A stretch of DNA of 64,000 bases, taken from Streptoalloteichus hindustanus. Lineage in GTDB: Bacteria > Actinomycetota > Actinomycetes > Mycobacteriales > Pseudonocardiaceae. The translations under genes were made by a program, and so were the position numbers. Shown here one piece after another: positions 14 through 56,537 of the stretch. Each line of letters starts with the position of its first letter. Position 1 is the first letter of the stretch. The notes below the pieces were generated by a model. That model ran no database searches. It was not told the origin of the DNA and saw only the letters and a list, made by a program, of their open reading frames with translations. The DNA lies in the NCBI RefSeq assembly GCF_900129375.1, contig NZ_FQVN01000003.1:248001-312000 (forward strand), written 5' to 3'.

Positions 14-160
14 ACAGCCCCCTCCCGCCCGGGGGGCGACCCCGCGTCCAGCCTATCGGCCGCCGACCGGGCGCCCCAACCCCACTTCGCTCCACTGTGG
101 ACAACTCGGGCCCCTGTGGACAACCACCCCGCCACCACACGGGAAGAGGGACTGACGCGG
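14..160. repeat. Dispersed DnaA-box element, copy A
   Basis: First of four copies of one intergenic element. The GC-rich core spans 14-57 and ends in AGCCTATC; it is the most diverged core and one base shorter than the others. After exactly 38 bp comes TGTGGACAA at 96-104 and a second at 115-123, 19 bp apart start to start. A TGACGCGG motif follows at 153-160. It lies downstream of nadC. The left edge is close to the window start, so the full extent is not visible. No open frame here looks coding. Confidence 0.75.
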
Positions 161-222
161 ACCGTCCAACCGACCCGCGCCAACCCCTCACCAGGCAGAA
201 CCCCGCCCGCCTCCGACAGAAA

Positions 223-1173
223 TCACATGTCAAGACCGAGATCGAGTGACGGGCTGGAATGCGTCAGCGCGCCGACCGAGAGGTAGTCCACCCCGGTCTC
301 CGCGTACGCCCTGGCCACGTCGAGCGTCAGCCCGCCGGAGGCCTCCAGCCGCGTCCGCGCCCCCGCCGCGTCTCGGCGGCGCACCGCCTCGGCGCACTGC
401 GGGACGGTGAAGTTGTCCAGCAGCACCTCCTCGGCGTCCACGGCCAGCACCGCGTCCAGCTCCGCCAGCGTCGTCACCTCGACCTCGCACGGCAGGCCGG
501 GCGCGTGCCGGCGCGCGGCGGCCAGGGCGGCGGTCACCGAGCCGGCGGCGACGACGTGGTTGTCCTTGATCAGCACGGCGTCGCCGAGGCCCATCCGGTG
601 GTTCACCCCGCCCCCGCACCGCACCGCGTACTTCTGCAGCGACCGCAGGCCGGGCAGCGTCTTGCGGCTGTCCCGGACGGCGCACCCGGTCCCGGCGACC
701 GCGTCGACCCACGCGGCGGTCGCGGTCGCCACCCCGGAGAGGTGGCAGACCAGGTTGAGCGCGGTGCGCTCGGCGGTCAGCAGCGCCCGCACCGGCGCCC
801 GCAGCCGCAGGGCCACGTCGCCCGGGGCCAGCCGCTGACCGTCCGCGCCCCGGTCCAGCACCTCGTAGTCGCCGACCACGACGTCCAGGACCGCCAACGC
901 CACCGGCAACCCGGCCAGAACGCCCGGCCGGCGCGAGCTCATCACCGCCTCGGCCACGGCCTCGGCCGGCACGGTGGCCTCGGTGGTGACGTCGGGCCCG
1001 TACCGCAGGTCCTCGTCCAGCGCCTGGCCGACGACCCGCCGCACCTCGGCGACGTCCAGTCCCGCCCCGGCCAGCGCGGCGGCGACCTCGTCGGAGATCC
1101 CCGGGGACACCGACGACACCCGGGACACCGAAGACGCCGGAGGCTCCGGGTTCGCGGAAGACACGTGGTTCAT
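223..1173 (-). CDS. nadC: Nicotinate-nucleotide pyrophosphorylase (quinolinate phosphoribosyltransferase)
   Basis: Converts quinolinate and PRPP to nicotinate mononucleotide, CO2 and pyrophosphate, the third step of de novo NAD synthesis. The 316-residue product has the type II PRTase features: RDSRKTLPGLR near residues 167-177, a GGGVNHR stretch after it, and IKDNH near 202-206. About 30 N-terminal residues are low-complexity Ser/Pro, so the mature fold begins near residue 28. The ATG at 1173 overlaps the nadB stop in the arrangement ATGA, which fixes this start and implies translational coupling. Last gene of nadA-nadB-nadC. No strong terminator hairpin follows; the next recognisable element is repeat copy A. 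Confidence 0.95.
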   Translation of the reverse strand: MNHVSSANPEPPASSVSRVSSVSPGISDEVAAALAGAGLDVAEVRRVVGQALDEDLRYGPDVTTEATVPAEAVAEAVMSSRRPGVLAGLPVALAVLDVVVGDYEVLDRGADGQRLAPGDVALRLRAPVRALLTAERTALNLVCHLSGVATATAAWVDAVAGTGCAVRDSRKTLPGLRSLQKYAVRCGGGVNHRMGLGDAVLIKDNHVVAAGSVTAALAAARRHAPGLPCEVEVTTLAELDAVLAVDAEEVLLDNFTVPQCAEAVRRRDAAGARTRLEASGGLTLDVARAYAETGVDYLSVGALTHSSPSLDLGLDM

Positions 1174-2783
1174 GCGGCCCCTCCCAAAGCGACGGTCTCG
1201 AAGAACGCGAGCCTGCCGGCCGCGTCGAGCCGGAGCGGCAGGCTGCGCCGCCACGACTCCTCGGTGCGGGGGAAGTCGGTGCGCACGTGACAGCCCCGCG
1301 TTTCCTTCCGCTCGCCGGCGGCGAGCAGCACCGCCCTGGCCACCATGGCCAGCGCGGCGTCCTCCACCTCGCGGTGTGTCCGAAGTGGACGGTGGACGGA
1401 GTGCGCCTCCAGCACCGACTCCGCCTCCACCAGACCGGACGCGTCCCGCCCGATGGCGGCGTAGCGGCTCATCACCCGCTGGAGCGCGGCCCGCTCGACG
1501 ACCGGCGCCGCCGGCAGCTCGGCCGGCTCGGCCGCCCTCGGGTCGGCGAGCCGGCCGGCGGCCAGGTCCGCCGCCGCGGCGCGGGCCGCGCGGGCCCCGA
1601 CCACCAGACCCTCCAACAAGCTGTTGGACGCCAACCGGTTCGCGCCGTGCAGACCGGTCCGCGCGACCTCCCCGGCGGCGTAGAGGCCGGTGACGCTGGC
1701 CCGACCGTCCACAGTGGTCACGACTCCGCCGCAGGCGAAGTGCGCGGCCGGCGCGACCGGGATCGGCTCCGCCGCCGGGTCGATCCCGGCCGCCCGGCAG
1801 GCGGCGTGCACGGTCGGGAACCGCCGCCGGAACGCCTCGCCGCCCAGGTGCGTGGCGTCCAGCAGGACGTGGTCGGCGCCGGTGGCGACCATCCGACGGG
1901 TGATCGCGGCGGCCACGACGTCGCGCGGCGCGAGGTCGGCCAGCGGGTGCACCCCGGCCATCACCCGGGCGCCGGCGCGGTCGACGAGCACCGCGCCCTC
2001 GCCCCGCACCGCCTCGGTCACCAGCGGCCGGCGGCCGTGCTCCCCGGCGCCGGTGAACAACACGGTGGGGTGGAACTGCACGAACTCGACGTCGGCGAGC
2101 ACGGCGCCGGCCCGCACCGCGAGCGCGAGGCCGTCGCCGGTGGCCACCTCCGGGTTGGAGGTCGCCTGGTAGAGCTGGCCGACGCCGCCGGTGGCCAGCA
2201 GGACGGCGGGCGCGCGCACCGCGCCCGGCACCCCGTTGCCGTCGAGCACCACCAGGCCGGCCACCTCGCCGGCCGGGGTGCGCAGCGCCTCCACCGCGAT
2301 GTGCTGCTCCAGCACCGGGATGCGCCCGTCCCGCAACGTCGCCAGCAACGCGCGCTCCACCTCGGCGCCCGTGGCGTCCCCGCCGGCGTGCACCACGCGG
2401 AACGTGCTGTGGCCGCCCTCCCGGGCGCGGGCGAGCCGGCCGTCCTCGGTCGTGTCGAAGCGGGCGCCGCCGCGCAGCAGCCGCTCCACGGCCGGCGGAC
2501 CGTCGGCGAGGATGGCGGCCACGGCGGCCTCCTCGCACAGCCCGGCGCCGGCGACGAGGGTGTCGGCGACGTGCCGCTGCACCGAGTCGCCCGGCTCGTG
2601 CTGGCCGGGCAGGACGACGGCCACGCCGCCCTGCGCCCACGGCGTGTTGCCCTCGGCCAGGCCGGCCTTGGTCACCACCAGCACCCGCAGCCCCAGCTCG
2701 CGCGCGGTGAGGGCGGCGGTCAACCCCGCCACGCCGGTGCCGACGACCACGAGGTCGGCACCGGCCTCCCAGAAGGGAGTCAT
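1170..2783 (-). CDS. nadB: L-aspartate oxidase
   Basis: FAD flavoprotein that oxidises L-aspartate to iminoaspartate, the substrate NadA condenses with dihydroxyacetone phosphate. The 537-residue product starts with the dinucleotide-binding motif VVVGTGVAGLTAAL near residues 11-24. It has the family segments TPWAQGGVAV, HSTFRVVHAGGDATG, FVQFHPTVL and, near the C-terminus, GLYAAGEVARTGLHGANRLA with SNSLLEGLV, typical of the succinate dehydrogenase/fumarate reductase flavoprotein superfamily. Its ATG shares one base with the nadA stop and its own stop overlaps nadC, so the three genes form one tightly coupled operon. Confidence 0.96.
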   Translation of the reverse strand: MTPFWEAGADLVVVGTGVAGLTAALTARELGLRVLVVTKAGLAEGNTPWAQGGVAVVLPGQHEPGDSVQRHVADTLVAGAGLCEEAAVAAILADGPPAVERLLRGGARFDTTEDGRLARAREGGHSTFRVVHAGGDATGAEVERALLATLRDGRIPVLEQHIAVEALRTPAGEVAGLVVLDGNGVPGAVRAPAVLLATGGVGQLYQATSNPEVATGDGLALAVRAGAVLADVEFVQFHPTVLFTGAGEHGRRPLVTEAVRGEGAVLVDRAGARVMAGVHPLADLAPRDVVAAAITRRMVATGADHVLLDATHLGGEAFRRRFPTVHAACRAAGIDPAAEPIPVAPAAHFACGGVVTTVDGRASVTGLYAAGEVARTGLHGANRLASNSLLEGLVVGARAARAAAADLAAGRLADPRAAEPAELPAAPVVERAALQRVMSRYAAIGRDASGLVEAESVLEAHSVHRPLRTHREVEDAALAMVARAVLLAAGERKETRGCHVRTDFPRTEESWRRSLPLRLDAAGRLAFFETVALGGAA

Positions 2784-3805
2784 CACTCCCCGCCCCCGGG
2801 CTGGCCGATGGCGATCATGCGCCGCACCGCGCCCCTGGCGCGCTCGGCGACGTCCGGGGCGACGTGGACCTCGTCGCGCCCCTCCCGCAGCGCGCGCAGC
2901 AGCGCGGCCGGCGTGATCATCTTCATGTAGCGACAGGCGGCGCGGTCGTTGACCGCCCGGAAGTCGATCTCCGGCGCGGCCCGGCGCAGCTGGTGCAGCA
3001 TGCCCACCTCGGTGGCCACGAGCACGGTGCGCGCGTGCGTGTCGCGGGCGGCCTTCACCATGTCGCCGGTGGACAGGATCTTCACCTTGTCCTGCGGCAC
3101 GGTGCCCTCCCCCGCCAGGTACAGCGCGGAGGTGGCGCAGCCGCACTCGGGGTGGATGAACAGGTCGGCGTCCGGGTTGGCCGCGGCCTTCTCGGCCAGC
3201 TCCGGGCCGTTGATGCCGGCGTGCACGTGGCACTCGCCGGCCCAGATGTGCAGGTTCTCCCGGCCCGTCTCGCGCTTCACGTGCGCGCCGAGGAACTGGT
3301 CGGGGCAGAACAGCACCTCGCGGTCGGCAGGGATCGACCGCACCACGTCGACGGCGTTGGACGAGGTGCAGCAGATGTCGGTCTCCGCCTTCACCTCGGC
3401 GGTGGTGTTGACGTAGGAGACGACCACCGCGCCCGGGTGCTCGGCCTTCCAGGCCCTGAGCTGCTCGGCGGTGATGGAGTCGGCGAGGGAGCAGCCGGCG
3501 CGCTCGTCCGGGATCAGCACCGTCCTGTCCGGGCTGAGGATCTTCGCGGTCTCGGCCATGAAGTGCACGCCGCAGAAGACGATCGTGTCGGCGTCGCTCT
3601 CCGCGGCGATCCGGCTCAGCGCGAGCGAGTCGCCGGTGTGGTGCGCGATGTCCTGGATCTCCGGCAACTGGTAGTTGTGCGCCAGGATGACCGCGTTGCG
3701 CCGCTCGGCCAGTCGCAGCACCTCCTCCCGCCACGCCGCGTCCGGCCGGACCCCGTCGTAGGGCTCCAGTGCCGATGCCCGCTCCACGGATGCAGTAGCG
3801 GCCAT
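2783..3805 (-). CDS. nadA: Quinolinate synthase A
   Basis: [4Fe-4S] enzyme that condenses iminoaspartate with dihydroxyacetone phosphate to quinolinate. The 340-residue protein shows [20 protein letters not shown] near residues 41-60, [15 protein letters not shown] near 76-90, an AGCSLAD cysteine near 105, and later HPECGC and RAACRYMKM, which supply the conserved cluster cysteines. The ATG at 3805 is preceded by GAGGAGGACGAC, a clear ribosome-binding site. It is the first gene of the nad operon and is transcribed divergently from nrtR; the shared 130 bp interval carries a perfect palindrome that is probably the NrtR operator. Confidence 0.96.
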
Positions 3806-3912
3806 GTCGTCCTCCTCGTACTCCCGCGGGACACCCGCCCCGGGCTCGCCGCCACGCGGGGGCGACCCGGCTGGCCGAGCCCTGTCCCGACGGCCGGTTG
3901 GCCGTCGGCCCG

Positions 3913-3935
3913 GTTTTCGACTTAGGATCGAAAAC
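3913..3935. promoter_or_regulatory. NrtR-type operator overlapping the nrtR -10 box
   Basis: Perfect inverted repeat GTTTTCGA-N7-TCGAAAAC between divergent nadA and nrtR. The spacer contains most of TAGGAT (3923-3928), a good actinobacterial -10 box for nrtR, with TTGGCC at 3899-3904 as a candidate -35. Since the ATG of nrtR is at 3936, transcription would start at or next to the start codon. A repressor bound here would block nrtR itself and could also block nadA. Assignment to NrtR rests on position and symmetry. Confidence 0.72.
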
Positions 3936-4637
3936 ATGGGTGATGGTATCAGCCATTCGGGTGGTGTGGCACATGAGGTGTTGGCCGCGGTGCTCCAGGT
4001 GAGAGACGGATCACTCCAGGTCATGCTGTGGCAACGGGCCCGGGAACCGCACGTGGGGCGGTGGGCGCTGCCCGGCGGCGGGCTCTGCCCGGACGAGGAC
4101 GTGGAGGCGTCCATCCGGTGGCACCTCGCGGAGAAGGTCGACGTCCGCCGGCTCTCCCACGTCGAGCAGCTCGCCGTGTTCAGCGCGCCCGACCGGGTGC
4201 CGGGGCCGCGCGTGGTCGCCACCGCCTTCCTCGGCCTGGTCCCCTGCGACGTCGACCCGGAGACGCCCGAGGACACCGCGTGGCACCCGGTCGCCGCGCT
4301 GCCGGAGACCGCCTTCGACCACGGCGCGATCGTGCTGCGCGCCCGCGACCGCCTGCGCGCCAAGCTCTCCTACACGAACCTGGGCTTCGCCCTCACGCCC
4401 CCGGAGTTCACCGTCTCGGCCCTGCGGGAGCTGTACTCGGCCGCGCTGGGCTACCGGGTGTCCGCGACCAACCTGCAACGCGTGCTGTCGCGCCGGGGTC
4501 TGCTGGAGCCCACCGGGCGCACCGCGCCCCCCGGCCCCTCGGGCGGCCGACCCGCCGCCCTCTTCCGGTTCACCGGACGGGGACTGTCCGTGACCGACCC
4601 GTTCGCGGTGCTCAAACCGCCCCGGAGCACACGTTGA
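3936..4637 (+). CDS. nrtR: NrtR-family Nudix-related transcriptional regulator of NAD metabolism
   Basis: Predicted repressor of the adjacent nadABC operon, with an N-terminal Nudix-like ligand domain and a C-terminal winged helix. The 233-residue product shows a Nudix-like stretch [26 protein letters not shown] around residues 46-71. It lacks a full REXXEE catalytic helix, as in NrtR proteins that sense rather than hydrolyse ADP-ribose derivatives. The C-terminal half ([21 protein letters not shown], then [17 protein letters not shown]) is the NrtR wHTH region. The ATG at 3936 fits a leaderless mRNA from the TAGGAT -10 box. In other bacteria NrtR controls NAD synthesis or salvage genes; here the target follows from adjacency and the shared palindrome. 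Confidence 0.85.
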
Positions 4638-4681
4638 GCAGCGAAATGGTCATCCGACCGGCATTCGTCCGGGCGGCGTCG

Positions 4682-4693
4682 TAACGTGAACGG
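4682..4693 (+). promoter_or_regulatory. Leaderless promoter of the Lon-domain gene
   Basis: TAACGT at 4682-4687 matches the TANNNT -10 consensus and lies 6 bases before the GTG start at 4694, with no ribosome-binding site between. No convincing -35 hexamer at normal spacing. Confidence 0.5.
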
Positions 4694-5374
4694 GTGGCCG
4701 AGACGCTACCGCTGTTCCCGTTGGGCACCGTGCTCTTGCCCGGAGCGTCCCTGCCGCTGCACGTCTTCGAGCCGCGCTACCGGCAGCTCACCGTCGACCT
4801 GATGACCGAGGTCGTGCCCGACCGCCGGTTCGGCGTCGTCGCGATCAGGCAGGGGTGGGAGGTCGGCGCCGACAACATCGAGTCGCTGCACGGGGTCGGC
4901 TGCTCGGCGACGCTGCGCGAGGCCCGCCGGCTGCCGGACGGCCGCTTCGACGTCGTCGCGCTCGGAGAACGCCGGTTCCGGCTGCTCGACGTGGACGCCG
5001 ACGCCGCGCCGTACCTGGTGGGCACGGTGGAGTGGCTGCCGGACAGCACGCCGGAGCCGGAGATCGACAACGCGGCCCCCGCGCTCGCCGAGGCGGCCAG
5101 GGCCGCGCACCGCCGCTACTGCGCGATCGCGTGGTCGCGCGAGGACTGGCGGGAGCCGCCGCCGGAGACCGAACCCGGCGACCTGGCCCACCTCCTCGCC
5201 GCGGACTGCCTGCTCAGCACCGAGGACCGGCAGCGCCTCCTGGAGCAGACCTGCCCGGTGCTGCGCCTGCGCCTGATCCGCCGCGTGCTGGCCCGGGAGT
5301 CCGGCCTGCTCGGCATGCTGCGCGCCGTCCCGGCCCCGGTCTCCGACTTCGCCGAGCTCCCCTCCCGCAACTGA
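4694..5374 (+). CDS. LON substrate-binding (N-terminal) domain protein
   Basis: 226-residue cytosolic protein consisting of the Lon protease N-terminal domain alone. It begins LPLFPLGTVLLPGASLPLHVFEPRYRQL (read in pieces: LPLFPLGTVLLPG, LHVFEPRYRQL), the family hallmark, and continues with FGVVAI, GVGCSATLREARRLPDGRFDV and GERRFRLL. There is no ATPase or protease domain. Such stand-alone proteins are common in actinobacteria and their role is unknown; substrate or partner binding is inference from the domain. Start chosen at GTG 4694 because TAACGT sits just upstream. The stop lies within a 12-bp tandem duplication. Confidence 0.9.
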   Translation: MAETLPLFPLGTVLLPGASLPLHVFEPRYRQLTVDLMTEVVPDRRFGVVAIRQGWEVGADNIESLHGVGCSATLREARRLPDGRFDVVALGERRFRLLDVDADAAPYLVGTVEWLPDSTPEPEIDNAAPALAEAARAAHRRYCAIAWSREDWREPPPETEPGDLAHLLAADCLLSTEDRQRLLEQTCPVLRLRLIRRVLARESGLLGMLRAVPAPVSDFAELPSRN

Positions 5375-5436
5375 GCCCGCAACTGAGCACCGCCGCTGTC
5401 GTGGCGGCGCTGTCGTGGCGGCGCTGTCGCGGGGCG
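5365..5436. repeat. Two adjacent short tandem repeats at the end of the Lon-domain gene
   Basis: CCGCAACTGAGC occurs twice in direct tandem (5365-5388), the first copy supplying the stop codon. It is followed by a 14-bp unit GCTGTCGTGGCGGC at 5395-5408 and 5409-5422 and a degenerate third unit to about 5436. The array fills most of the 70 bp between the convergent Lon-domain and DinB-fold genes. Confidence 0.8.
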
Positions 5437-5444
5437 GCGGGGAC

Positions 5445-5954
5445 TCAGGCGCCGACCGTGCCGTCGACGCCCTCGCGCAGGAAGTCGGCGTGCCCGTTGT
5501 GCCGGGCGTACTCGTGGATCAGGTGCAACATCACCAGGCGCAGCGACACCGGCTCCCCCGTCCGGTAGTGCCGGCCGGTGACGTCGAGCGACTCGGCGCT
5601 CCGCTCGATGCGGCGGGCGTGCTCGACCTCCGCCTGCCAGGCCGCGAACGCCTCCTCCCGGGTTGCGGTGCTGGCGTCGTAGGCCACCTGGAAGTCACCC
5701 TCGTCGGACCAGACGAGCGGGACGTCCTCCCCGTCGATCACGCGCCGGAACCAGGCCCGCTCGACCTCGGCCATGTGCCGCACCAGGCCCAGCAGGGACA
5801 ACGTCGAGGGCGGCATGGACTGCCGGCGCAGGTCGTCGTCGGAGAGGCCGTCGCACTTCATGGCGAGCGTGGCGCGGTGGAAGTCGAGGTAGGCGCGGAG
5901 CATCTCGCGCTCACCGCCGACCAGCGGCGGACTGGGACGTTCGGTGGTGACCAT
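5445..5954 (-). CDS. DinB-fold (DUF664) family protein
   Basis: 169-residue four-helix-bundle protein of the DinB/mycothiol-dependent isomerase superfamily, DUF664 branch. Likely metal ligands are the histidine in LGLVRHMAEVERAWF (near residue 60) and those in HLIHEYARHNGHADFLRE (near residues 144-156). In this superfamily a three-histidine site binds a divalent metal and some members use mycothiol or bacillithiol; the substrate here is unknown. The start was set at MVTTERPS, preceded by GAAGGGACC; upstream in-frame codons lack family similarity. A second, diverged member lies at 33045-33545. Confidence 0.8.
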   Translation of the reverse strand: MVTTERPSPPLVGGEREMLRAYLDFHRATLAMKCDGLSDDDLRRQSMPPSTLSLLGLVRHMAEVERAWFRRVIDGEDVPLVWSDEGDFQVAYDASTATREEAFAAWQAEVEHARRIERSAESLDVTGRHYRTGEPVSLRLVMLHLIHEYARHNGHADFLREGVDGTVGA

Positions 5955-6324
5955 GGGGCGGTCCCTTCGCAGGAGGAACGACAACCCGTGATCCTGGGCA
6001 GGAAGCCGGCGAAGCACCACCGGGTTTTCCTCCCGCCCACGTGGTCGCCCCGAACCACCAACGGTCCACAGTGGACAGAACAGTCGAGCCCGGAGAGCTG
6101 GCGTGTTGTCCACCGGGGAACAGCGGTCACCCATCCCGGGCCATTTCGCCATCGCCACACGGAAGAGCGACAGCACTGCCAGCCCGATTGTCAGACCCCC
6201 GTGAGACGTTGGAAATGGGGGGTCCCCCGAGTTACAGAGGTGTACGCGGCGACCGCCGGCCGCCGCTCGTCCCCGCAGCGCTGATCACGACGTTCCCCCG
6301 CCGCCACCCGCGCCGGAAACGCCG
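5955..6324. other. Intergenic interval upstream of the DinB-fold gene
   Basis: 370 bp between two minus-strand genes. It must hold the promoter of the DinB-fold gene and the end of the DUF2567 transcript. The only structure I see is GTCCAC-A-GTGGAC at 6064-6076, a short symmetric site that could be an operator. No open frame in it looks coding. Confidence 0.5.
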
Positions 6325-6945
6325 TCAGCCCAGGCGACGACCCAGGTCGTCGTGACCGTTCCACGCGGCGCACACCCCGTAGGCGAGCAGGGTGGCCAGC
6401 GGCTGGGCCAGCACCACCCACCCCGACTCCAGCCGCGGCGGGTCCCGCAGCAGGGCGCCGGGCCGCCCCAGGTCGCCCAGCTCGTAGAGCGCCTCGGCGA
6501 ACGTCGGGCCCGTCCGCAGGGCGAGCCAGGCCGCCACCACCGACCCCAGCGCGGCGGCGAGCATGACGACCGGCCCCCGCCGTTGCCGCAGCAGCCACAC
6601 CGCGACCCCGGTGAGCAGCCCCGCGGCCAGGGTGAGCAGCAGGAAGACCCCGAGGTCGTCGAAGCGGTGGTAGCTCTCCAACGGCAGCGGCGCCAGCCGG
6701 TTGCCCTGGAGGACCCGGACCTGCTGCGGCGGGGCGAGCCGCGACCACAGCCAGCCGACCGGCAGACCGACCAGCGCCACCGTGGACAGCACGCTCACCG
6801 CGGGCAGCAGGTCGCGTCGCACCACGACCCGCGGCCGCGCGTGGTGCCACTCGGCCGACGGCGGCACGTCCGCTCCCGGCCCGGCCGGCGGAACCCGCTG
6901 CGGCTCCACGCGGCTCTCCGGCGACTCCACCGGCTGCTCCGGCAC
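6325..6945 (-). CDS. DUF2567 integral membrane protein
   Basis: 206-residue protein with a Pro-rich cytoplasmic N-terminus of about 42 residues and four hydrophobic segments (roughly 46-66, 98-116, 126-144 and 180-195). It corresponds by position and topology to the DUF2567 protein that follows bioB and the small BsaP gene in mycobacteria (Rv1591 in M. tuberculosis). Function unknown; conservation beside the biotin genes suggests but does not prove a link. GTG 6945 is the start used; TAGGGT at 6994-6999 (minus strand) is a possible -10 box, so the gene may have its own promoter just past the bsaP terminator. Confidence 0.82.
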   Translation of the reverse strand: MPEQPVESPESRVEPQRVPPAGPGADVPPSAEWHHARPRVVVRRDLLPAVSVLSTVALVGLPVGWLWSRLAPPQQVRVLQGNRLAPLPLESYHRFDDLGVFLLLTLAAGLLTGVAVWLLRQRRGPVVMLAAALGSVVAAWLALRTGPTFAEALYELGDLGRPGALLRDPPRLESGWVVLAQPLATLLAYGVCAAWNGHDDLGRRLG

Positions 6946-6999
6946 CCGAGACCTCCCGTCGACCCACCGCCCGACCCCCGCCGGGCATCCCGGACCCTA

Positions 7000-7044
7000 G
7001 TGTCGCCCGTGCCCGCCGGTCGTGGCCGGGTGGCCGGGCGACAC
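7000..7044 (-). terminator. Hairpin after bsaP
   Basis: Perfect 10-bp inverted repeat GTGTCGCCCG / CGGGCGACAC (7000-7009 and 7035-7044) with a 25-base loop, starting 2 bases past the bsaP stop. Likely terminator of the bioB-bsaP transcript; there is no U-tract, which is usual in actinomycetes. Confidence 0.65.
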
Positions 7045-7046
7045 GT

Positions 7047-7265
7047 TCAGGCGGTCGGGGCCGACGCGGCGCGGTCGGAGTCGGAGGAGGACGCGCCGTG
7101 CGCGCTGCACCGGGCGGTCCACCCGGCCGGGGTCACCTGCACGACCATGCGCCGCGCGCAGTGCGGGCAGTACCGGGGCGGCTCCAGCACGCGCCGCCGC
7201 TGACAGGCCGCGTGGTCCCCCTCGGCGGCGGCGCCCCCGCACCAGGCGCAGAAACTGTCGCTCAC
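7047..7265 (-). CDS. bsaP: Biotin synthase auxiliary protein BsaP
   Basis: 72-residue cysteine-rich protein encoded right after bioB, 28 bases downstream. It begins [10 protein letters not shown] and has [19 protein letters not shown] and ARCSAHG: two CxxC pairs plus further cysteines, as expected for an iron-sulfur or zinc-binding peptide. Size, cysteine pattern and position match Rv1590 of M. tuberculosis, whose mycobacterial homologues are reported as BsaP, an auxiliary Fe-S protein needed by biotin synthase to turn dethiobiotin into biotin. The function is carried over by homology. The start is GTG at 7265. Confidence 0.82.
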
Positions 7266-7293
7266 CTCGTCCTCACAGCGTCTCGCCCAGTCC

Positions 7294-8331: not shown

Positions 8332-8454
8332 GGTTCTCCCCTGTCGTCGTGCGGTCGGCGCCGTAGTCTGCCGCACTCCCCGCCTCCCGCGAAGCGGCGT
8401 GGATCACTCTCCCAGCAAACCCGTCCGATGTTGTGGGCGATCCACAACCGGGCC

Positions 8455-9171: not shown

Positions 9172-9224
9172 GGCCAGCCAGGCTACGACGTCCGTCCGCG
9201 ACCCCAACGGGTAGCGTCGGTGCT
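9172..9224. promoter_or_regulatory. Back-to-back leaderless promoters of bioD and the glutaredoxin-like gene
   Basis: Minus strand: TAGCCT at 9185-9180, 8 bases before the bioD GTG. Plus strand: TAGCGT at 9212-9217, 7 bases before the ATG at 9225. Neither gene has a ribosome-binding site in the remaining space. No clear -35 hexamers. Confidence 0.6.
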
Positions 9225-9476: not shown

Positions 9477-9540
9477 CCGCGCTCCCGCACCCGCACGGCC
9501 CCGGTTCTTCCGCGCCCCACAAGGAAAAACCACCCTGAGG

Positions 9541-9717
9541 ACAGCCCCCACCCGCCCTGGGGGGCGAGCCCTGCTCCAGCCTATCCGGGAACCGCCGGGC
9601 GCCGCTCCGGTCACTCGCCGACCTGTGGACAACCCCGGTCGGCACATCACCCGCGAGGCGGTTCTCCCGGGTGATGTGGATAACTCCGGCCTTTTTCGGA
9701 AAAACCGTTTGACACAG
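9541..9717. repeat. Dispersed DnaA-box element, copy B
   Basis: Core 9541-9585, then exactly 38 bp, then TGTGGACAA at 9624-9632. The second box of the other copies (expected at 9643) is absent; instead TGTGGATAA, the canonical DnaA box in reverse, lies at 9675-9683. TGACACAG follows at 9710-9717. Lies in the 360 bp between the convergent glutaredoxin-like and bioA genes. No coding frame seen in this interval. Confidence 0.75.
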
Positions 9718-9740
9718 AAGAGCCCAGCCTCAGCGGCCGC

Positions 9741-9784: not shown

Positions 9785-9836
9785 CGGACAGCGGCCCGCC
9801 CGCGAGGAGGCGCCACGCGCCCCGCCGCCGGTCGGC

Positions 9837-21048: not shown

Positions 21049-21165
21049 GGGGTCCGCGCTTGCCCGACGCACCCCGCGCCGGACCAGGTCCTCACCCGGG
21101 GCACCCCACCGCGGTTGGAGGGTTGCCGGCCAGCGAGCCGGGGCTTCGCGCTGGCGCTCATGACC
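21049..21165 (-). ncRNA. SAM-IV riboswitch
   Basis: Minus-strand leader beginning GGTCATGAGCGCCAGC and continuing through CCCCGGCTCGCTGGCCGGCAA, CCCTCCAACCGCGGTGGGG, TGCCCCGGGTGAGGACC and ending CAAGCGCGGACCCC. These are the conserved SAM-IV aptamer blocks, including the CCGGCAACCCTCC-GCGGTGGGGTGCCCCGGGTGA core. TAATCT on the minus strand at 21180-21175 is the -10 box and puts the RNA start at the aptamer edge. After the aptamer, GGACCC-CTCGT-GGGTCC forms a hairpin before the GAGGAGG ribosome-binding site, so control of translation initiation is likely. Confidence 0.9.
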
Positions 21166-23120: not shown

Positions 23121-23297
23121 ACAGCCCCCACCCGTCCCGGGGGGCGAGCCCCGCTCCAGCCTATCCAGCGGATACCCGGCGCCGAAAGCACCACATCGTC
23201 CTCTGTGGACAACTCGCCGCCCTGTGGACAACCCACGTCACCCCAGAGTGAAAGAAACTCCGGAAAGGGTGAAACCACAAGGAAACCCTTGACGCAG
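23121..23297. repeat. Dispersed DnaA-box element, copy C
   Basis: Core 23121-23165, 38 bp spacer, TGTGGACAA at 23204-23212 and again at 23223-23231 (19 bp apart). TGACGCAG follows at 23290-23297, 86 bp from the first box, the same distance as in copy B. The core differs from copy D only at the first base. Located downstream of ileS and upstream of the antiporter, both minus-strand genes, so unlike B and D it is not between convergent genes. Confidence 0.8.
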
Positions 23298-49217: not shown

Positions 49218-50411
49218 CACGGTCTCCTCCCCGGGGAGCGCCCCCGGTCCTCGTCCTGTCCCCGGTGTCGGCTCGACGTCGGCACGCCGCCGACTCCCGG
49301 GATCTCACTGTGGTGTTCTCGTCGTCGGTCTCGAAGGAGCTGGTCTCGACGGAGTCGTTCTCGTTCGAGTCGGTCTCGTCGGAGCGGTGGTTCGAACCCG
49401 GTTGCTGGGACGCGCGAGGCCCGCCCGCCGTTCGGTCGGGGGCCGGGTCCGGGGTGTGATCTCCGCCGGGTGCTGGTGGGCGTCCGCTCCGACCACAAGG
49501 CCACGAGCGCGGCGCGACGCGCGGAACGCGCCCTGTCGGTCAGGAGCGACGCCACGCCGGGGTCAGCCCGCGCCACGAGCCCCACACACGCGACATCAAG
49601 CGGCAGCGCTGGCAGGGCTGGATCCGTCATTCCCGCCGGGCCCGTCGTTCTCGCGGGCACCCGGGACGCGACCGCTCCGGGCCGTCGGGCCCGGGTCGAC
49701 CGCCGGGGGTGTCCTCGCTCCGGGCCGTGCCTCACCGCTCCACCCTGTTCGTCGCCCCTGCTGTCACCCTGTGCCAGCTGTCACCCTGTGTCACCGTGTC
49801 GTCGCCGCGCGACGTTCGCCCTGGGCGTCCTCCGGGTCTCCCCCGCCGTAGTCCGCGCCCCGCACGGGGACACGCACTCGACACGAGGCCCAGCACGGTG
49901 GCCCGTGGGGTCGGTGTGGGTGGGGGCGGTGCGACCGGATGTCGTCGGGTCCCCGCCCGCTCGTCGGACCTGGCGCCGGGGAAGGTGCGCCAGGGCCGGT
50001 GGACCGTTCCGCCCAGGATCACCCGGTGGCCGTCCCGCCGGCCGCCGCTGTTCGCGGGCCGCCAGCGTGCTCGTCGCGCTCGCCCCCCCGGCGCGTGACC
50101 GCGCCACGAAGGACCAGACACCGACGGACACCGCTGGGCTGCTCGCCGCAGGGCGGCACGACCGGGGTGGGAGCCGCCTGCGCGGCACCCGGGAATCCGA
50201 GGAGCACGGCCCGCCGAGCGGACCGAGGCCGAACGACACCCGAGCCGTCCGACCGGTGAGACCCTCCCCGCTGTCCAGGGGGTGGCGGAGGCCGCCGACG
50301 GCGACACACGCCCATCCCCGGGCACCTCGTCACGGCCACGACGTGACCGGAGGAGACGGAGAACGACCTCACCCGCCGCGCACGCGACGCCGTCGCCGCG
50401 CGCCGACCCGG
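49218..50411. other. Unusual 1.2 kb gap between rsmH and mraZ
   Basis: mraZ and rsmH are normally adjacent. Here 1194 bp separate them with no recognisable gene. Two notable patches: a degenerate, Ser/Arg-encoding 12-15 bp direct repeat at about 49316-49395 (units like GGTCTCGACGGAGTCG), and CTGTCACCCTGTG repeated at 49761-49773 and 49778-49790 with a partial third copy to 49800. A minus-strand frame at 49500-49630 has codon-like third positions for about 50 residues (ALPLDVACVGLVARADPG) but then degenerates and lacks a good ribosome-binding site; it may be a gene remnant. Confidence 0.6.
49761..49800. repeat. 17-bp-spaced direct repeats upstream of rsmH
   Basis: CTGTCACCCTGTG at 49761-49773 and again at 49778-49790 (period 17), then TGTCACCGTGTC at 49789-49800 as a partial third unit. 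It resembles a multi-site protein-binding array. Its place in the mraZ-rsmH gap suggests a role in rsmH-operon control, by inference only. Confidence 0.65.
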
Positions 50412-50843
50412 TCAGAAGATCCCGGGCAGCACCTCCTCCCGTGCCTGCGCGTAGCTCTCCTCGTGCTCGGCGAGGTAGCGCTCCCACGCAGAGGCGTCCC
50501 AGATCTCCAGACGGGTGATCGCCCCGATGACCACGCACTCCTTGGTCAGCCCGGCGTAGCGCCGCAGCTCGGGAACGATCGTGATCCGGCCCTGCCCGTC
50601 CGGCCGCTGCTCGTCGGTGCCGGCGAACAGGTAGCGCTGGAAGGCGCGAACCGACTCGTTGGTGAGGGGGGCCTCGGCGACCTTGCGGGCCATCTGCTCG
50701 AACTCGGCGCGCGGGAAGACGTACAGGCAGTGGTCCTGGCCTTTGGTGACCATCAACCCCCCTGCGAGCGCGTCCCGGTACTTGGCCGGCAGGGTCAACC
50801 GACCCTTGTCGTCGAGCCTCGGGGTGTGGGTGCCGAGGAACAC
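50412..50843 (-). CDS. mraZ: Transcriptional regulator MraZ
   Basis: 143 residues, exactly the actinobacterial family length, with two MraZ/AbrB-like beta domains: [23 protein letters not shown] at the N-terminus and [24 protein letters not shown] in the middle, the DxKGRLxxP motif occurring in both forms. MraZ oligomerises and binds phased repeats at its own promoter to repress the dcw cluster. The start was set at GTG 50843, because the GTG at 50852 would abut the ribosome-binding site GGGGAGG and family members start at FLGTH. Confidence 0.96.
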
Positions 50844-50912
50844 GGCTCCCACCTCCCCACCGATTCAGGCCCCCTCCCGAACCCGTCTCGGCCGGCGGGA
50901 CCCCCGTCTGCC

Positions 50913-50952
50913 CCACCGCCCGCCACAGTACCCCACTTTTCACCACAGTCAA
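50913..50952 (-). promoter_or_regulatory. mraZ promoter with four 10-bp-phased MraZ-type sites
   Basis: On the minus strand: -35 TTGACT (50952-50947), 16 bp spacer, -10 TACTGT (50930-50925). GTGG occurs four times at exactly 10-bp steps (50946, 50936, 50926 and 50916 as first bases), covering the spacer, the -10 box and the start site. Phased short direct repeats are the known MraZ operator design; in E. coli these are TGGGN units with 5-bp gaps. Confidence 0.8.
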
Positions 50953-51359
50953 CGGGAACGACGGCGACAACCGCCCGATCAGGTCGACGTTTCCGCAGCT
51001 CAGCGGGGTGGGGCCGGAGTGGGGGGCGGTGGGGAGGGCCCGAGGGGGCGCGCCGGCCGGACGCGCGGGGAGCAGTCCGCGCGACCCCGTCCGCCCCGCC
51101 CGGCTCCCCCCGAACGGCGGACGGCTGAGCGGCCGTCGGCCGGGGCGCCGACCTGCGTTGCTGGCACGCGGGGCCGACGGTGGGGGAAGGTGGGGACCGA
51201 GGCGACCCGGCGGACGGCTCCATGGCTCGGTCGGAACGTGGGACACCTCGCCGGGTTTTGACAGACTTCTCGGCACGCTGCCCGAGGTGACCGCACCACG
51301 CGCGCCCGCGCCCGGTGCGGGCGCGGAGCGAGGGCGTGCGCCGCAGCACAGGAGGACGT
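50953..51359. other. Intergenic region between mraZ and moxR
   Basis: About 400 bp between divergent genes. It must hold the moxR operon promoter. TTGACA at 51258-51263 is a clean -35 hexamer, but no TANNNT box follows at 16-18 bp. Nothing else assigned. Confidence 0.4.
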
Positions 51360-52475
51360 GTGACGTCAGGTTTCCAGGCCGCCGCACCCCTGGGGTCCAG
51401 TGGGAACGGCCGGCGGCCGGCCGAGGGCCATCCGGGCGAGGCCGAGCTCGCCGAGCTGCACTCCGCCGCGCAGCGGATCGCCGCCAACGTGGAGCGGGTC
51501 CTGGTGGGCAAACCCGAGGTGGTGCGGATCGCCCTGGTGACCCTCCTCGCCGAGGGGCACCTGCTGGTCGAGGACGTGCCGGGCGTCGGCAAGACGTCGC
51601 TGGCCAAGGCGCTGGCCCGGTCGATCGACTGCTCGGTCAGCCGGATCCAGTTCACCCCGGACCTGCTGCCCAGCGACATCACCGGCGTGTCGATCTTCAA
51701 CCGGCAGGAGAACGAGTTCGAGTTCCGGCCGGGGCCGGTCTTCGCGAACATCGTGGTCGGCGACGAGATCAACCGGGCCTCGCCCAAGACCCAGTCGGCG
51801 CTGCTGGAGTGCATGGAGGAGCGGCAGGTCACGGTGGACGGGCGGACCCACCCGCTGCACGCGCCGTTCATGGTGATCGCCACCCAGAACCCGGTGGAGA
51901 TGGAGGGCACCTACGCGTTGCCCGAGGCCCAGCGGGACCGGTTCACCGCCCGCGTCTCGATCGGGTACCCGGACCCGCAGGCCGAGCTGGCGATGGTGGA
52001 CGGGCACGCCGGCCGGGACCCGCTCGCCGAACTGCGCCCGGTGTCCGACGCGGCGCAGGTGCGGACGCTGCTGTCCACCGTGCGCCGCGTGCTGATGTCC
52101 CCCGACGTCCGGCGCTACGCCGTCGAGCTGGTCTCGGCCACGCGGCGGCTGCCCGAGCTCCGGCTCGGCGCCTCGCCGAGGGCCACGCTGCAGCTCGTCC
52201 AGGCCGCCAGGGCGCACGCCGCGCTGGCCGGCCGCGACTTCGTGGTGCCCGACGACGTGCAGGCCGTGGCGATCCCCGTCCTGGCGCACCGGCTGGTCCT
52301 CACCCCGGAGGCGCAGGCCTCCCGGCGCTCCCCCGCCGACCTGGTCCGCGGCCTGCTGCACCAGGTCCCGGTCCCGCAGGGCGCCGGGGCGCAGCGCCCC
52401 ACCGAGCCCGCCGAGTGGCTGCGGGACCTGCGCGGCGCCAACCCGGCCGGACCCCAGCAGCAGAGGACGACGTAG
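51360..52475 (+). CDS. MoxR-family AAA+ ATPase
   Basis: 371-residue AAA+ ATPase of the MoxR class, thought to act as a chaperone for partner proteins. VLLVGKPEVVRIALVTLLAEG region precedes Walker A (EDVPGVGKTSLAKAL near residue 79), Walker B VVGDEINRASPKTQSALLECMEE, sensor 1 in MVIATQNPVEMEGTYALPEAQ and DRFTARVSIGYP. GTG 51360 follows AGGAGGAC. First gene of moxR-DUF58-transglutaminase, a conserved trio in actinobacteria and many others. Confidence 0.93.
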   Translation: MTSGFQAAAPLGSSGNGRRPAEGHPGEAELAELHSAAQRIAANVERVLVGKPEVVRIALVTLLAEGHLLVEDVPGVGKTSLAKALARSIDCSVSRIQFTPDLLPSDITGVSIFNRQENEFEFRPGPVFANIVVGDEINRASPKTQSALLECMEERQVTVDGRTHPLHAPFMVIATQNPVEMEGTYALPEAQRDRFTARVSIGYPDPQAELAMVDGHAGRDPLAELRPVSDAAQVRTLLSTVRRVLMSPDVRRYAVELVSATRRLPELRLGASPRATLQLVQAARAHAALAGRDFVVPDDVQAVAIPVLAHRLVLTPEAQASRRSPADLVRGLLHQVPVPQGAGAQRPTEPAEWLRDLRGANPAGPQQQRTT

Positions 52476-53750
52476 GTGCGGCGCGTGCTGGCGGGGCTGA
52501 CGACCCGCGGCCGCTGCCTGCTCGCCGCCGGCATCGCCGCCGCGGTGTGCTCCCTGGTGCTCGACGAGCGCGACCTGCTCCGGGTCGCCGTGTTCCTGGT
52601 GACCCTGCCGATGCTGGCGACCGCGCTGGCCGCCGGCTCCCAGGTCCGGTTGGCGGCCGGCCGCGCGCTGCTGCCGGCCCGGGTCCCGGTGGGCACCGGC
52701 GCGGAGGTGCGGTTGGAGGTGCGCGGCGGCGGGCGCCTGCCCGCCGGCGGGCTGCTGCTAGAGGACGGGGTTCCGTACGCGTTGGGGGGTCGTCCGCGCT
52801 TCGTCGTCGAGCGGCTGCCCCGGAACGAGGCGGCCGTGCTCGTCTACCCCCTGCAACCCGTGCAGCGGGGTGTGCACCACGTCGGCCCGCTGCTGGCGCG
52901 GGTGACCGACCCCTTCGGCCTGGCCGAGTTCGAACGCGAGCTGGCGGGGCACAGCCGGCTCGTGGTGGTGCCCAGGGTGGTGCCGCTGTCCGGTGTGCCC
53001 ACCGGCTCGGGCCTGGGCGCGGGTGAGGACGGCTCCCTGCGGATGCGCAGCGGGCAGGGCGAGGACGACGCCGTGGTCCGCCCGTGGCGGCAGGGCGACG
53101 ACATGCGCAAGGTGCACTGGCGCTCCACCGCCCGCCGCGACGAGCTGATGGTGCGGGTCGAGGAACGGCCGTGGCGCGGCGGCACGACGGTCCTGCTGGA
53201 CCACCGCAGCGCCGCCCACCGGGGCAGCGGGCCGACCTCCAGCCTGGAGTGGGCGGTGTCGTTCACCGCGAGCGTCTGCCTGCACCTGCAGCGGCACGGC
53301 CACGACGTGCGGCTGGTCACCGAGACCGGCTCCGTGCTGGCGGGCACCTCGGCCCACGGCGGGCACGTCGGGGACGTCGTGCTGGACGCGCTCGCCGGGC
53401 TGAACCCGTCGCACGGCAGGGACATGGCCTGCGGCAGCGACCCCGGCGGCGGGCACGAGCTGGTCGCCGTGCTGGGCGCGACCACGCCCGCCGCCGCGGC
53501 CGAGCTGATCCGCTGGCGCCCGCGCGGCGCCAGGAGCCTGGCCGTGCTGCTGGACGTCGCGGGCTGGGCCACCCACGGCGAGGAGAAGGCGCCGGCCCCG
53601 GACGAGGCCGCCCACCTGCTGCGGGGCGCCGGGTGGCGGGTGGCTCTCGTGCGGCCGGAGACGGGTATGGCGGCGGCGTGGCGGGAGCTGTGCCGCCCCG
53701 GCGCGGTGTCCCCGGAGATGGCCGCGAGCCAGGACGGGAGGGTCGGATGA
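52476..53750 (+). CDS. DUF58 domain protein
   Basis: 424-residue membrane-anchored protein. Two hydrophobic helices at about 14-50, then an extracellular/periplasmic-type beta region, then the DUF58 motif RPWRQGDDMRKVHWRSTARRDELMVR near residue 205, followed by a vWA-like domain (VLLDHRSA region). The GTG abuts the moxR stop. Partner of MoxR; precise role unknown. Confidence 0.92.
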   Translation: MRRVLAGLTTRGRCLLAAGIAAAVCSLVLDERDLLRVAVFLVTLPMLATALAAGSQVRLAAGRALLPARVPVGTGAEVRLEVRGGGRLPAGGLLLEDGVPYALGGRPRFVVERLPRNEAAVLVYPLQPVQRGVHHVGPLLARVTDPFGLAEFERELAGHSRLVVVPRVVPLSGVPTGSGLGAGEDGSLRMRSGQGEDDAVVRPWRQGDDMRKVHWRSTARRDELMVRVEERPWRGGTTVLLDHRSAAHRGSGPTSSLEWAVSFTASVCLHLQRHGHDVRLVTETGSVLAGTSAHGGHVGDVVLDALAGLNPSHGRDMACGSDPGGGHELVAVLGATTPAAAAELIRWRPRGARSLAVLLDVAGWATHGEEKAPAPDEAAHLLRGAGWRVALVRPETGMAAAWRELCRPGAVSPEMAASQDGRVG

Positions 53751-56266
53751 GCCGCGCTGTCCCCCGGCTCTCCGTCGAGGTCTCCCTCGCGCCGGTGGCC
53801 GCCGCCGTGGCCGTCGTGGGCGCGTCGACGGCGTTGTCCGGGGTGCTGGCGGGCGGGCAGTGGCTGGCGTTCGTCGTCGTCTCGGCGGCGGTGGTGGCCG
53901 TCGCCGGCATCGGCCTGCGGGCGCTGCGGCTGCCCGCGCTCGTCGTAGCCCTCGGCCAGATGGTCGCGCTGTGCTGCCTGCTCACCGGGCTGTTCACGCG
54001 CGACGGCGTCCTCGGCGTGCTGCCCGGCCCGGCCGTGGTGGACGAACTCCAGGTCCTGCTGCGCCAGTCGGTGGAACAGGTGCGCGTCGGGGTGCCGCCG
54101 GTCGCGTCGACGGCGGCGATGATGTGCCTGGTCACGGTGGCCGTGGGCCTGGTCGCGATCGTGGTGGACACCCTGGCGGTGGGCGCCGAGGCCCCGGCCG
54201 CGTCCGGGTTGGTGCTGCTGTGCGTGTTCGCGGTGCCCGCCTCGCTGGCCGACGAACTGCTCCCGTGGTGGTCCTTCGTGCTCGGCGCGCTCAGCTTCGC
54301 CCTGCTGCTCGTCGCGGACGGCCGGCACCGGCACCGGGAGTGGCGTGGCCGGATCGGCGCCGCGGGTGGCGGGCGGGCCGGCGCGGTCCCCACCGCGGCG
54401 GTCGTCAGCGGGTTGACCGTGGTGGTGGCCCTGCTCGTCGGGGGCGGCATGACGTTCGTCGGCACCGCGGGCCGGCTGCCCGGCTCGGACGCCGACGGAG
54501 GCCCCGGGGACGGTTCGACCGGCATCGGGCTGCAGCCGTTCACGTCCCTGCGCGGCCAGCTCGACCGGGGCCGACGGGTCGAGCTGTTCCGGGTCCGGGG
54601 GCTCGACGAGAGCCGGTACCTGCGGGCGATGACGCTGCGCCGGTTCGAGGCGGGCCGGGGCTGGCTGCTGGACGGCATCGGGGAGGGCGTGCCGGTGCGC
54701 GGCCAGCTCCCCACCCGCGAGCCCCGCCCGACGGGCGGCCGGGTCGCCGCCATCGACATCGAGCCCCTCGGCTACCGCGACTTCTGGCTCCCCGTGTACG
54801 GCGCGCCGCTGGCGCTGCCGGAGCTGGACGGCTCGTGGCGGTACGACAGCACGGCGGGGGTCGTGTTCTCCCAGCAGAACAAGCGACCCGCGCGGTACGT
54901 CGAGCAGGCCGTGTTCGCCAACCCGAGCCCCGAACACCTGCGCGGGCTGCCCTCTGGCGCGGCCGCGGTGGACCCCGCCTACGTCGAGCGGCCGGACGTC
55001 GACCAGAAGGTCGTCGACCTCGCCCGGGGGATCACGCTCGACGCCCGCTCGGACTTCGAACGGGCGCTCGCGCTCCAGGAGTACTTCGTCACGCCGGCGA
55101 ACGGATTCCGCTACAGCCTGCAGACCGGCGGCGTCGGCGGGGACGCGCTGACCGACTTCCTGTTCCACGGGCGGACGGGCTTCTGCGAGCAGTACGCGTC
55201 GGCGATGGCGGTCATGCTGCGGTCGCTCGGCGTGCCGAGCCGGGTCGCGATCGGCTTCACCGCCGGCACGAACACCGGCGAGTACCGCGTGATCACCACC
55301 GAGGACGCCCACGCCTGGGTGGAGGTCTACTTCCCCGGCCAGGGCTGGACCATGTTCGACCCGACCCCGATGGAGGCGAACCGGCGGGCGCGGCCGCCGC
55401 ACCTGGACAACGGCACCCCGGCCAACTCGAGCGGGCCAACCGCGACCACCACCGGCGCGGCGCCGACCTCGGGCGTCACGCCGGGCACGTCGGGGAGCGC
55501 GCGGCCCAGCACGACTTCCGGCCCGACCGCGCACCAGGCACAGAGTGCCGCGCCGATCACCGCGCCGCCGGCTCCGCTCCGGTACTCCCTGACCGGCGTG
55601 CTGGCGGGCCTCGGCGTCCTGGCCCTGCTGCTGCCGGTCGGGCTGGCGCTCCTCGCGACCAGGAGAGCGCGGGGCGTCCGGCCCACTGGCGGGGAAAAGC
55701 TGGCCTCGGCGACGGTGGTCGGGATGCGGGCCGGTGGGCCCGCGAGCTGGGCGATCGGCGGCGCGTTGCTGGTGGGCGCGGTGCTCGCCGGGCTGGCACC
55801 GGCATCCTGGTGGCCGCCGGTGTTCGTCTGGGTGCTCCTCACGGCGCTGCTGCTCGCCCTCGCGCTGGGCGCCCTGCCGGCGCTGGTGCGCGACGCCCAG
55901 CGCCGGGCCCGGCTCCGCGCCGTCGCGGTGGGCGGCCCGGGCGCGACCGACGCGGCGTGGCAGGAGCTGCTCGCCGAGTCCCGCGACCGGGGCGGTGTGG
56001 TGGCCGAGAGCGACACGGTGCGCGGCGCGGCCAGGAAGCTCGCGCACGAGCACGGTCTGGACGAGGCGGGGCAGTCGGCGCTGCGCGTGGTGATCAGCAC
56101 GGTCGAGCGGGACTGGTACGGGGGTGTGCCGCCCACCGGTCCCGAGCTGCCGGAGGCCGTCGGCGAGGTGCGGGAGAGCCTTCGCCGCAACGCGCCGCTC
56201 GCCCTGCGGGACCGGTTCCTCCCCCGCTCGGTCCTCCGCCGCCGGGGAAGCTCCCCACGGGACTGA
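53747..56266 (+). CDS. Transglutaminase-like membrane protein (TgpA family)
   Basis: 839 residues. The N-terminal part has about six membrane helices (residues 15-190), then a DUF3488-like region, then a transglutaminase core with the catalytic triad Cys in GFCEQYASAM (near 480), His in EDAHAWVEVYF (near 522) and Asp in FDPTPME (near 538). A Thr/Ser/Pro-rich linker (about 560-605) leads to further helices (roughly 612-632, 658-710) and a cytoplasmic C-terminal DUF4129-like tail. The ATG overlaps the DUF58 stop (ATGA). Cell-surface protein processing is inferred from the fold. Confidence 0.92.
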   Translation: MSRAVPRLSVEVSLAPVAAAVAVVGASTALSGVLAGGQWLAFVVVSAAVVAVAGIGLRALRLPALVVALGQMVALCCLLTGLFTRDGVLGVLPGPAVVDELQVLLRQSVEQVRVGVPPVASTAAMMCLVTVAVGLVAIVVDTLAVGAEAPAASGLVLLCVFAVPASLADELLPWWSFVLGALSFALLLVADGRHRHREWRGRIGAAGGGRAGAVPTAAVVSGLTVVVALLVGGGMTFVGTAGRLPGSDADGGPGDGSTGIGLQPFTSLRGQLDRGRRVELFRVRGLDESRYLRAMTLRRFEAGRGWLLDGIGEGVPVRGQLPTREPRPTGGRVAAIDIEPLGYRDFWLPVYGAPLALPELDGSWRYDSTAGVVFSQQNKRPARYVEQAVFANPSPEHLRGLPSGAAAVDPAYVERPDVDQKVVDLARGITLDARSDFERALALQEYFVTPANGFRYSLQTGGVGGDALTDFLFHGRTGFCEQYASAMAVMLRSLGVPSRVAIGFTAGTNTGEYRVITTEDAHAWVEVYFPGQGWTMFDPTPMEANRRARPPHLDNGTPANSSGPTATTTGAAPTSGVTPGTSGSARPSTTSGPTAHQAQSAAPITAPPAPLRYSLTGVLAGLGVLALLLPVGLALLATRRARGVRPTGGEKLASATVVGMRAGGPASWAIGGALLVGAVLAGLAPASWWPPVFVWVLLTALLLALALGALPALVRDAQRRARLRAVAVGGPGATDAAWQELLAESRDRGGVVAESDTVRGAARKLAHEHGLDEAGQSALRVVISTVERDWYGGVPPTGPELPEAVGEVRESLRRNAPLALRDRFLPRSVLRRRGSSPRD

Positions 56267-56284
56267 CCCGCGGGAGAGCACTGG

Positions 56285-56317
56285 GCCCGGGCGTTCGACC
56301 TCTGTCAGCGCCCGGGC
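56285..56317 (+). terminator. Terminator of the moxR-DUF58-transglutaminase operon
   Basis: GCCCGGGCG (56285-56293) pairs perfectly with CGCCCGGGC (56309-56317), 15-base loop, starting 18 bases after the stop. Confidence 0.75.
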
Positions 56318-56402
56318 TCGCCGTCGCCCAGGAGAAACCCGGGAGGCTCACGGCGCGAGACTCGCACCACATCCAGCCGCCTCGCCGAACCCCCGCCCCA
56401 GG

Positions 56403-56537
56403 TCAGCCCCCACCCGTCCCGGGGGGCGAGCCCCGCTCCAGCCTATCGGCCAAGACCCCTGCGCCGACACCGCACCACGAGCTCCTGTGGACAACCGACG
56501 AGCCTGTGGACAACTCCCACTCCAACGAGTGACACAG
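56403..56537. repeat. Dispersed DnaA-box element, copy D
   Basis: Core 56403-56447 (44 of 45 bases as in copy C), exactly 38 bp, TGTGGACAA at 56486-56494 and 56505-56513 (19 bp apart), then TGACACAG at 56530-56537, closer than in copies B and C. Lies in the 412 bp between the convergent transglutaminase and DUF3040 genes. No gene seen in that interval. Confidence 0.8.

Follow-up and report, generated by a model that had tools for sequence, protein, structure and literature searches.

Anatomy of the element and its copies in the window

The stretch analysed here, referred to as the window, comprises 64 kb (positions 248,001 to 312,000 of contig NZ_FQVN01000003.1, in our numbering G000:C14:248001-312000) of the 7.28 Mb genome of Streptoalloteichus hindustanus, a member of the Pseudonocardiaceae, a family of soil bacteria. 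It harbors four copies (A to D) of a repeated intergenic element, all on the minus strand. Read on that strand, the unit displays, in this order, a single or paired DnaA box TTGTCCACA, unconstrained sequence of about 40 bp, a hexamer TAGGCT resembling a -10 promoter element and a GC/G-rich leader. Its minus-strand consensus is GAGTTGTCCACAG, about 8-10 bp, GAGTTGTCCACAG, about 38-40 bp and GATAGGCTGGAGC(R)GGGCTCGCCCCCC(R)GG(R)CGGGTGGGGGCTG.

Copy A (model match G000:C14:248012-248130, 76.0 bits) displayed its hexamer and G-rich leader at 14-57 (hexamer 50-55, leader 14-49), a proximal box TTGTCCACA at 96-104 and a distal box of the same sequence at 115-123. Hexamer and leader of copy C (C14:271119-271238, 86.2 bits) occupied 23121-23165 (hexamer 23158-23163) and its boxes 23204-23212 and 23223-23231; the corresponding positions in copy D (C14:304401-304520, 89.9 bits) were 56403-56447 (hexamer 56440-56445), 56486-56494 and 56505-56513. 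In copy B (C14:257539-257644, 72.0 bits) hexamer and leader were found at 9541-9585 (hexamer 9578-9583) and the proximal box at 9624-9632, like the preceding boxes by word search; its distal box TTATCCACA (9675-9683) lies 51 bp from the proximal one. The two are separated by an inverted repeat ATCACCCG/CGGGTGAT (9646-9653 and 9668-9675), a type also encountered at loci L006, L026, L042 and L053, where the boxes are about 51-53 bp apart. Such a repeat between widely spaced boxes is perhaps the site of another regulator. Thirteen boxes at -99 to -102 were counted among 90 copies of this genome.

A sequence-only reading of the window had described this arrangement on the plus strand, and its measurements were reproduced. 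All seven TGTGGACAA were present (at 96, 115, 9624, 23204, 23223, 56486 and 56505), together with TGTGGATAA at 9675; the cores ended with AGCCTATC at 57, 9585, 23165 and 56447, with the first box 38 bp on in each and the second beginning another 19 bp along (A, C and D) or 51 bp along (B). Seven boxes also exceeded chance, as had been claimed (shuffled sequences contained 0.15 on average and none of 100 shuffles reached seven). The core had been taken for the 5' part of a plus-strand element, a view that found no support here: if the element is a promoter, the core is the transcribed end of a minus-strand unit. Similarly, the TGACRCRG motif said to follow the boxes was found in all four window copies but is no constant part of the element, being present within 150 bp of only five of the 90 own-genome copies (background of 1 % in random 150-bp stretches).

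Copy number and DnaA boxes in the genome

A sequence model of 43 copies (alignment A1, 43 of 46 pattern matches) uncovered 94 strong copies (E <=1.5e-12) and five weak ones in the full genome, where the sequence-only reading had proposed to look for more. Ninety of the 94 were placed by the leader pattern. When the 150 bp ahead of the hexamer were inspected in these 90, the word TTRTCCACA occurred twice in 58 copies, once in 22 and three times in five. It was missing from the remaining five, so that a box is not universal, the more so as copies without it were also found in Kibdelosporangium (see below).

The genome contains 228 exact TTGTCCACA, of which 143 lay no more than 160 bp upstream of the hexamer in one of the 90 elements (the reversed control word occurred 32 times in the genome), and 46 of the 51 strict box pairs were located within element copies. 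The resemblance to DnaA boxes that had been noticed in the window was strengthened by the dnaA-dnaN gap of the same genome (dnaA identified by PF00308, dnaN by Pfam), which carries six sites that deviate from the box at no more than one position, including GAGTTGTCCACAGAG and two GAGTTGTCCACGG. The latter is the extended word of the elements and thus common to both. A DnaA-trio or unwinding element was considered and rejected, inspection by eye revealing only one TAG and no AT-rich stretch. As a side observation, TGTCAA (the reverse of TTGACA) was present about -80 to -175 upstream, at varying positions, in 20 of the 90 copies, against 0.4 % of random stretches.

Promoter-like features

Altogether 281 distinct copies were read, 170 from Streptoalloteichus and 111 from 25 other labels, some of which possibly designate the same genus. 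Loci from pattern scans were taken among the matches listed and had their box spacing fixed by construction of the pattern; the following spacings concern copies gathered by model or DNA search. In Streptoalloteichus the distance from the start of the nearest box to the hexamer was 46-49 bp for 143 of 158 copies; the same applied to 49 of 60 copies from 15 other labels (without Kibdelosporangium) and to one of 12 Kibdelosporangium copies. Where the nearest box lay at -65 to -68, the rows inspected displayed a proximal box with at least two mismatches.

Hexamers outside Streptoalloteichus were mainly TAGGCT (49 of 111) and TAGACT (48), followed by TACGCT (5), TAAGCT, TAAACT and TAGAAT (2 each) and TAGCCT, TAGGAT and TAGCAT (1 each); T1, A2, T6 and G8 were demanded by the pattern and only positions 3-5 were free to vary. 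Six rows lacked the pattern in the scanned stretch: three displayed it just outside, two read CAGGCTGG and one TAGGCTGA. A TAnnnT hexamer at a fixed place, variable at positions 3-5, behaves as a -10 element would. Upstream of it, TT was found at a spacer of 17 in 82 of the 170 Streptoalloteichus copies, compared with 23 at spacer 16 and 17 at spacer 18; none of the remaining spacers between 10 and 25 exceeded 18. Two functions had been guessed at from the window, DnaA titration and a DnaA-responsive promoter. The promoter is the better-supported half, given the -10-like hexamer, the TT peak at 17 bp and the swapped operator described below; titration fits the box count and the position near oriC.

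A short-leader type was encountered at L294 (Actinokineospora diospyrosa) and L397 (genome G259), where the hexamer is followed by GGGGGCTGCTC... and then by TTTGATCTTG or a near match. L294 displayed ten such copies by pattern in 8 kb, some of them divergent around shared boxes.

Taxonomic range and the Kibdelosporangium copies

A model from a multi-genus alignment (A2, 61 hand-picked rows, the short-type Actinokineospora rows being excluded) matched 178 of 297 genomes of the family, representing 36 of 46 genera, at E <=1e-4. At E 1e-6 it matched 31 of 298 genomes of the order, all from this family, whose share of the 298 is not given. The single-genus model, whose counts include leaderless box pairs such as those of genome G013, also yielded, at E 0.01, 13 weak matches in seven of 16 genomes from other families of the order (best 4.6e-5). 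Copies per genome ranged from one to about 100 (the multi-genus family survey tallied up to 12 per genome), genus g49 displaying one match in each of seven listed genomes. No match to copy D was found in phages or plasmids. A contig filed under Candidatus Melainabacteria (L269) also carries the element and is perhaps a mis-binned actinobacterial contig.

In the Kibdelosporangium genome G178 (12,808,207 bp), 31 of the 58 listed matches start after the boxes according to a hand count. Ten stretches of this genome were picked mostly because the match lacked boxes. Of the Kibdelosporangium copies read, ten were without a box. All ten retained hexamer and leader, and in nine of them the box region was occupied by a palindrome containing GAACGGNCC. 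Such a swap of the operator would be anticipated for a promoter but not for an element that merely sequesters DnaA.

Chromosomal position

Distances to dnaA were determined in three single-contig genomes treated as circles, for 58 of 62 (G178), 73 of 80 (G259) and 19 of 19 (G072) matches. Plotting copies against the origin, as had been proposed, revealed that listed copies were nearer to dnaA than uniform in all three (Kolmogorov-Smirnov p 4e-9, 0.019 and 1e-7), and no listed copy was found in the terminus-most quarter of two of them. In G072 the copies were also nearer to dnaA (median 0.07 half-chromosome) than 20 helicase-family matches (0.41; p 1e-4, one genome). Six own-genome copies lay within 50 kb of dnaA against 1.3 expected (p 0.002). 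No strand bias was apparent, 82 of 150 listed copies pointing with the replication fork; the shared orientation emphasised by the sequence-only reading is therefore a property of the four window copies and does not extend elsewhere. On the same count a strand-polar signal, similar to Chi or to the FtsK-orienting polar sequences (KOPS), was rejected.

This distribution is what would be expected if the elements were mainly sites of DnaA titration or inactivation near the origin, like datA or the Bacillus clusters, with a promoter that only aids loading or stripping of DnaA by transcription. The lack of strand bias and the large share of exact TTGTCCACA adjoining the elements point in the same direction. 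We nevertheless regard this explanation, although a serious rival, as rather unlikely: in Kibdelosporangium, hexamer and leader are often retained where no DnaA box is present, and the single copy found by the model in each of the seven listed g49 genomes is too few to titrate.

Gene neighbourhood

Genes were called by a codon-score script; eight neighbours were named by Pfam and the rest by eye. Convergent gene gaps hold 53 of 91 copies; over 380 kb of the same contig, such gaps represent 17 % of all intergenic sequence (p 2e-18). The leader side faced a gene 3' end in 70 of 92 copies and the box side in 72 of 92. Convergent placement, with both sides facing 3' ends about equally, argues for a stand-alone unit.

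Some loci could nonetheless suggest a local regulator of the adjoining gene, that is, an antisense promoter or a terminator at 3' ends. The element was found antisense between cydA and cydB at nine of 13 loci, in six genera (Pfam for one pair; the 13 were selected from few-copy genera and strong matches, not at random). Elsewhere an antisense copy falls within the frame of the ATP-binding cassette (ABC) transporter gene that follows cydB and is probably cydDC; this was seen in Umezawaea, in two species of Streptoalloteichus and in two genomes of g22 (loci L083, L304, L252, L094 and L365), and no internal stops were found in the four such frames checked. Three loci have a site in common, next to an amidase gene in the vicinity of trxA, trxB and parB. 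The leader facing the 3' end of the next gene would also fit local control, but the box side does so just as often, so that the bias is one for convergent gaps and not for the leader side. Moreover, only ten shared-neighbour clusters were found between labels, two of which are probably one genome under two labels. Purely local regulation is thus very unlikely.

At the cydA-cydB gap loci L366, L367 and L369-L372, GTTTCAGGTGAAAC adjoins the boxes. It differs by one mismatch from GTTTCACGTGAAAC, which we take to be the parS word, and was not found upstream of the 90 own-genome copies.

Conservation and possible multiplication in Streptoalloteichus

In a 400-kb synteny comparison all seven own copies, including the four of the window, were located at the same place in S. 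tenebrarius, where one of them displayed a changed hexamer and leader. S. tenebrarius carried at least four further sites in this stretch (four of 11 sites), two of which were tandem dimers. Dimers at different places in the S. tenebrarius genome share about 315 bp of 74-97 % identity; their similar ends lie at the distal box on one side and a little beyond the second leader on the other. In this two-species comparison the additional sites would fit gain. The unit seems to be kept at many places and to be able to multiply.

A palindromic or miniature transposable repeat that spreads by copying and persists between convergent genes, with promoter and boxes being incidental, would account for the similar ends of the dimers, the S. 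tenebrarius-only sites, the preference for convergent gaps and the variation in copy number. It would leave unexplained why spacers differ while box, hexamer and spacing are mostly constant in the copies common to both species, and why the cydA-cydB copy was kept in six genera; nor would a repeat that does no harm be expected to crowd at oriC. No terminal inverted repeats were seen by eye, and the failure of copy D to match phages or plasmids likewise argues against it. We consider this explanation unlikely, though it too is a serious rival.

A possible family of DnaA-responsive promoters

Tentatively, and aware that it may well prove wrong, we favour another explanation for the anatomy, spacing, copy number and its variation, taxonomic range, location and conservation observed here: a family of DnaA-responsive promoters for short non-coding RNAs, doubling as a DnaA sink. 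DnaA binding, transcription, the sign of regulation and the role of the RNA are all putative. Each copy would by itself constitute a sigma-70-type promoter, driving a short non-coding RNA from the strand opposite to that of the sequence-only reading. With a start 7 nt after the -10 element, the DnaA boxes would be centred at about -56 and -75, where a class I-type activator would sit and at a distance suited to contact with the polymerase; DnaA bound there would switch the promoter. The RNA would begin with the conserved GC/G-rich leader of about 35 nt. Since the copies, roughly 100 in number, tend to be located close to oriC and account for the majority of the genome's exact DnaA boxes, the set would also buffer free DnaA, with a capacity that doubles early after initiation.

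Several observations weigh against this explanation. The RNA part is its weakest link, because neither a conserved fold nor a conserved RNA end was found: RNAalifold returned 0 pairs on 61 multi-genus copies, leader folds predicted from single sequences differed among copies, and little conserved sequence followed 3' of the leader in the 90 own copies. The -35 score was weak: of 170 Streptoalloteichus copies, 35 displayed at least four matches to TTGACA at spacers 15-18 and 23 did so at the control spacers 22-25, the corresponding counts outside that genus being 18 and 21 of 111. Shared ancestry of the copies inflates the consensus, and the models favour TAGRCT. Box pairs occur without leader (five of the 51 strict pairs of the own genome and the G013 loci). 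Part of the set may be selfish, because S. tenebrarius has extra, partly dimeric copies, and part of the crowding at oriC may be background, because essential genes crowd there in K. albida, of the same family (PMC4210621). The same paper describes the oriC of K. albida as lacking classic DnaA boxes.

Two side observations concern leaders and leaderless pairs. On the 43 Streptoalloteichus copies alone RNAalifold returned 10 pairs, one with changes on both sides. At the G013 loci L198, L206, L210 and L214, the box pairs adjoin a palindrome GGTGGCAAATTCGCGCGAATTTGCCACC and display no promoter leader. A G-quadruplex leader is not claimed: it was predicted in four of 11 typed leaders, and some G tracts were broken in Kutzneria.

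If the promoters do answer to DnaA, much of the family would possess a distributed, countable and testable DnaA sensor centred on the origin. This would be relevant to the limitation of initiation in actinobacteria and to the question whether a set of non-coding RNAs is controlled by DnaA. The operator swap in Kibdelosporangium and the single-copy genus offer natural experiments to separate titration from promoter function. A bolder extension, which we consider unlikely, is that the origin-crowded promoters, about a hundred in number, read active DnaA and emit RNAs with one G-rich 5' leader as a pooled replication-state signal, the old antisense cyd copy (between cydA and cydB or inside cydDC) linking initiation to respiration.

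Comparison with known systems

The sequence-only reading had recognised no described family, and none emerged here: no Rfam 15 family reached its gathering score on the element in a scan of the window and eight loci, and no description of such an element was found in literature listings and the beginnings of abstracts, a coverage under which absence is not proof. The same Rfam scan detected a SAM-IV riboswitch at 21051-21165 of the window, on the minus strand.

In Streptomyces, a cluster of DnaA boxes outside oriC is reportedly involved in the regulation of replication, in work of 2006 attributed to Smulczyk-Krawczyszyn. The present elements resemble it as actinobacterial chromosomal DnaA boxes outside oriC. 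It is reported as one cluster, however, and is not known to include a -10 element and leader at a fixed distance, whereas a family of about 100 units is encountered here. Bacillus subtilis has DnaA-box clusters and DnaA-controlled promoters with boxes upstream of promoters, for which titration was proposed; those sites are few and precede protein genes, in contrast to a repeated unit mostly located between convergent genes.

Escherichia coli datA, DARS1 and DARS2 are non-coding sites that act on DnaA, as the present element may do by analogy. They differ in being present in one copy each, with another box arrangement, and are not known to have a shared promoter or leader. Papers on such sites include PMC4585315 and PMC10950094, the title of the latter indicating that transcription reaching datA matters.

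As in repetitive extragenic palindromic (REP) sequences, bacterial interspersed mosaic elements (BIMEs) and miniature inverted-repeat transposable elements (MITEs), presence differed between close species, namely S. hindustanus and S. tenebrarius. These repeats likewise are scattered over numerous intergenic sites, frequently those between convergent genes. They are built on a palindrome or on terminal repeats, unlike the conserved, spaced signals with free spacers found here. Whereas DnaA boxes located away from oriC are familiar, we know of, and found, no other repeated, spaced box-plus-promoter unit present at about 100 copies.

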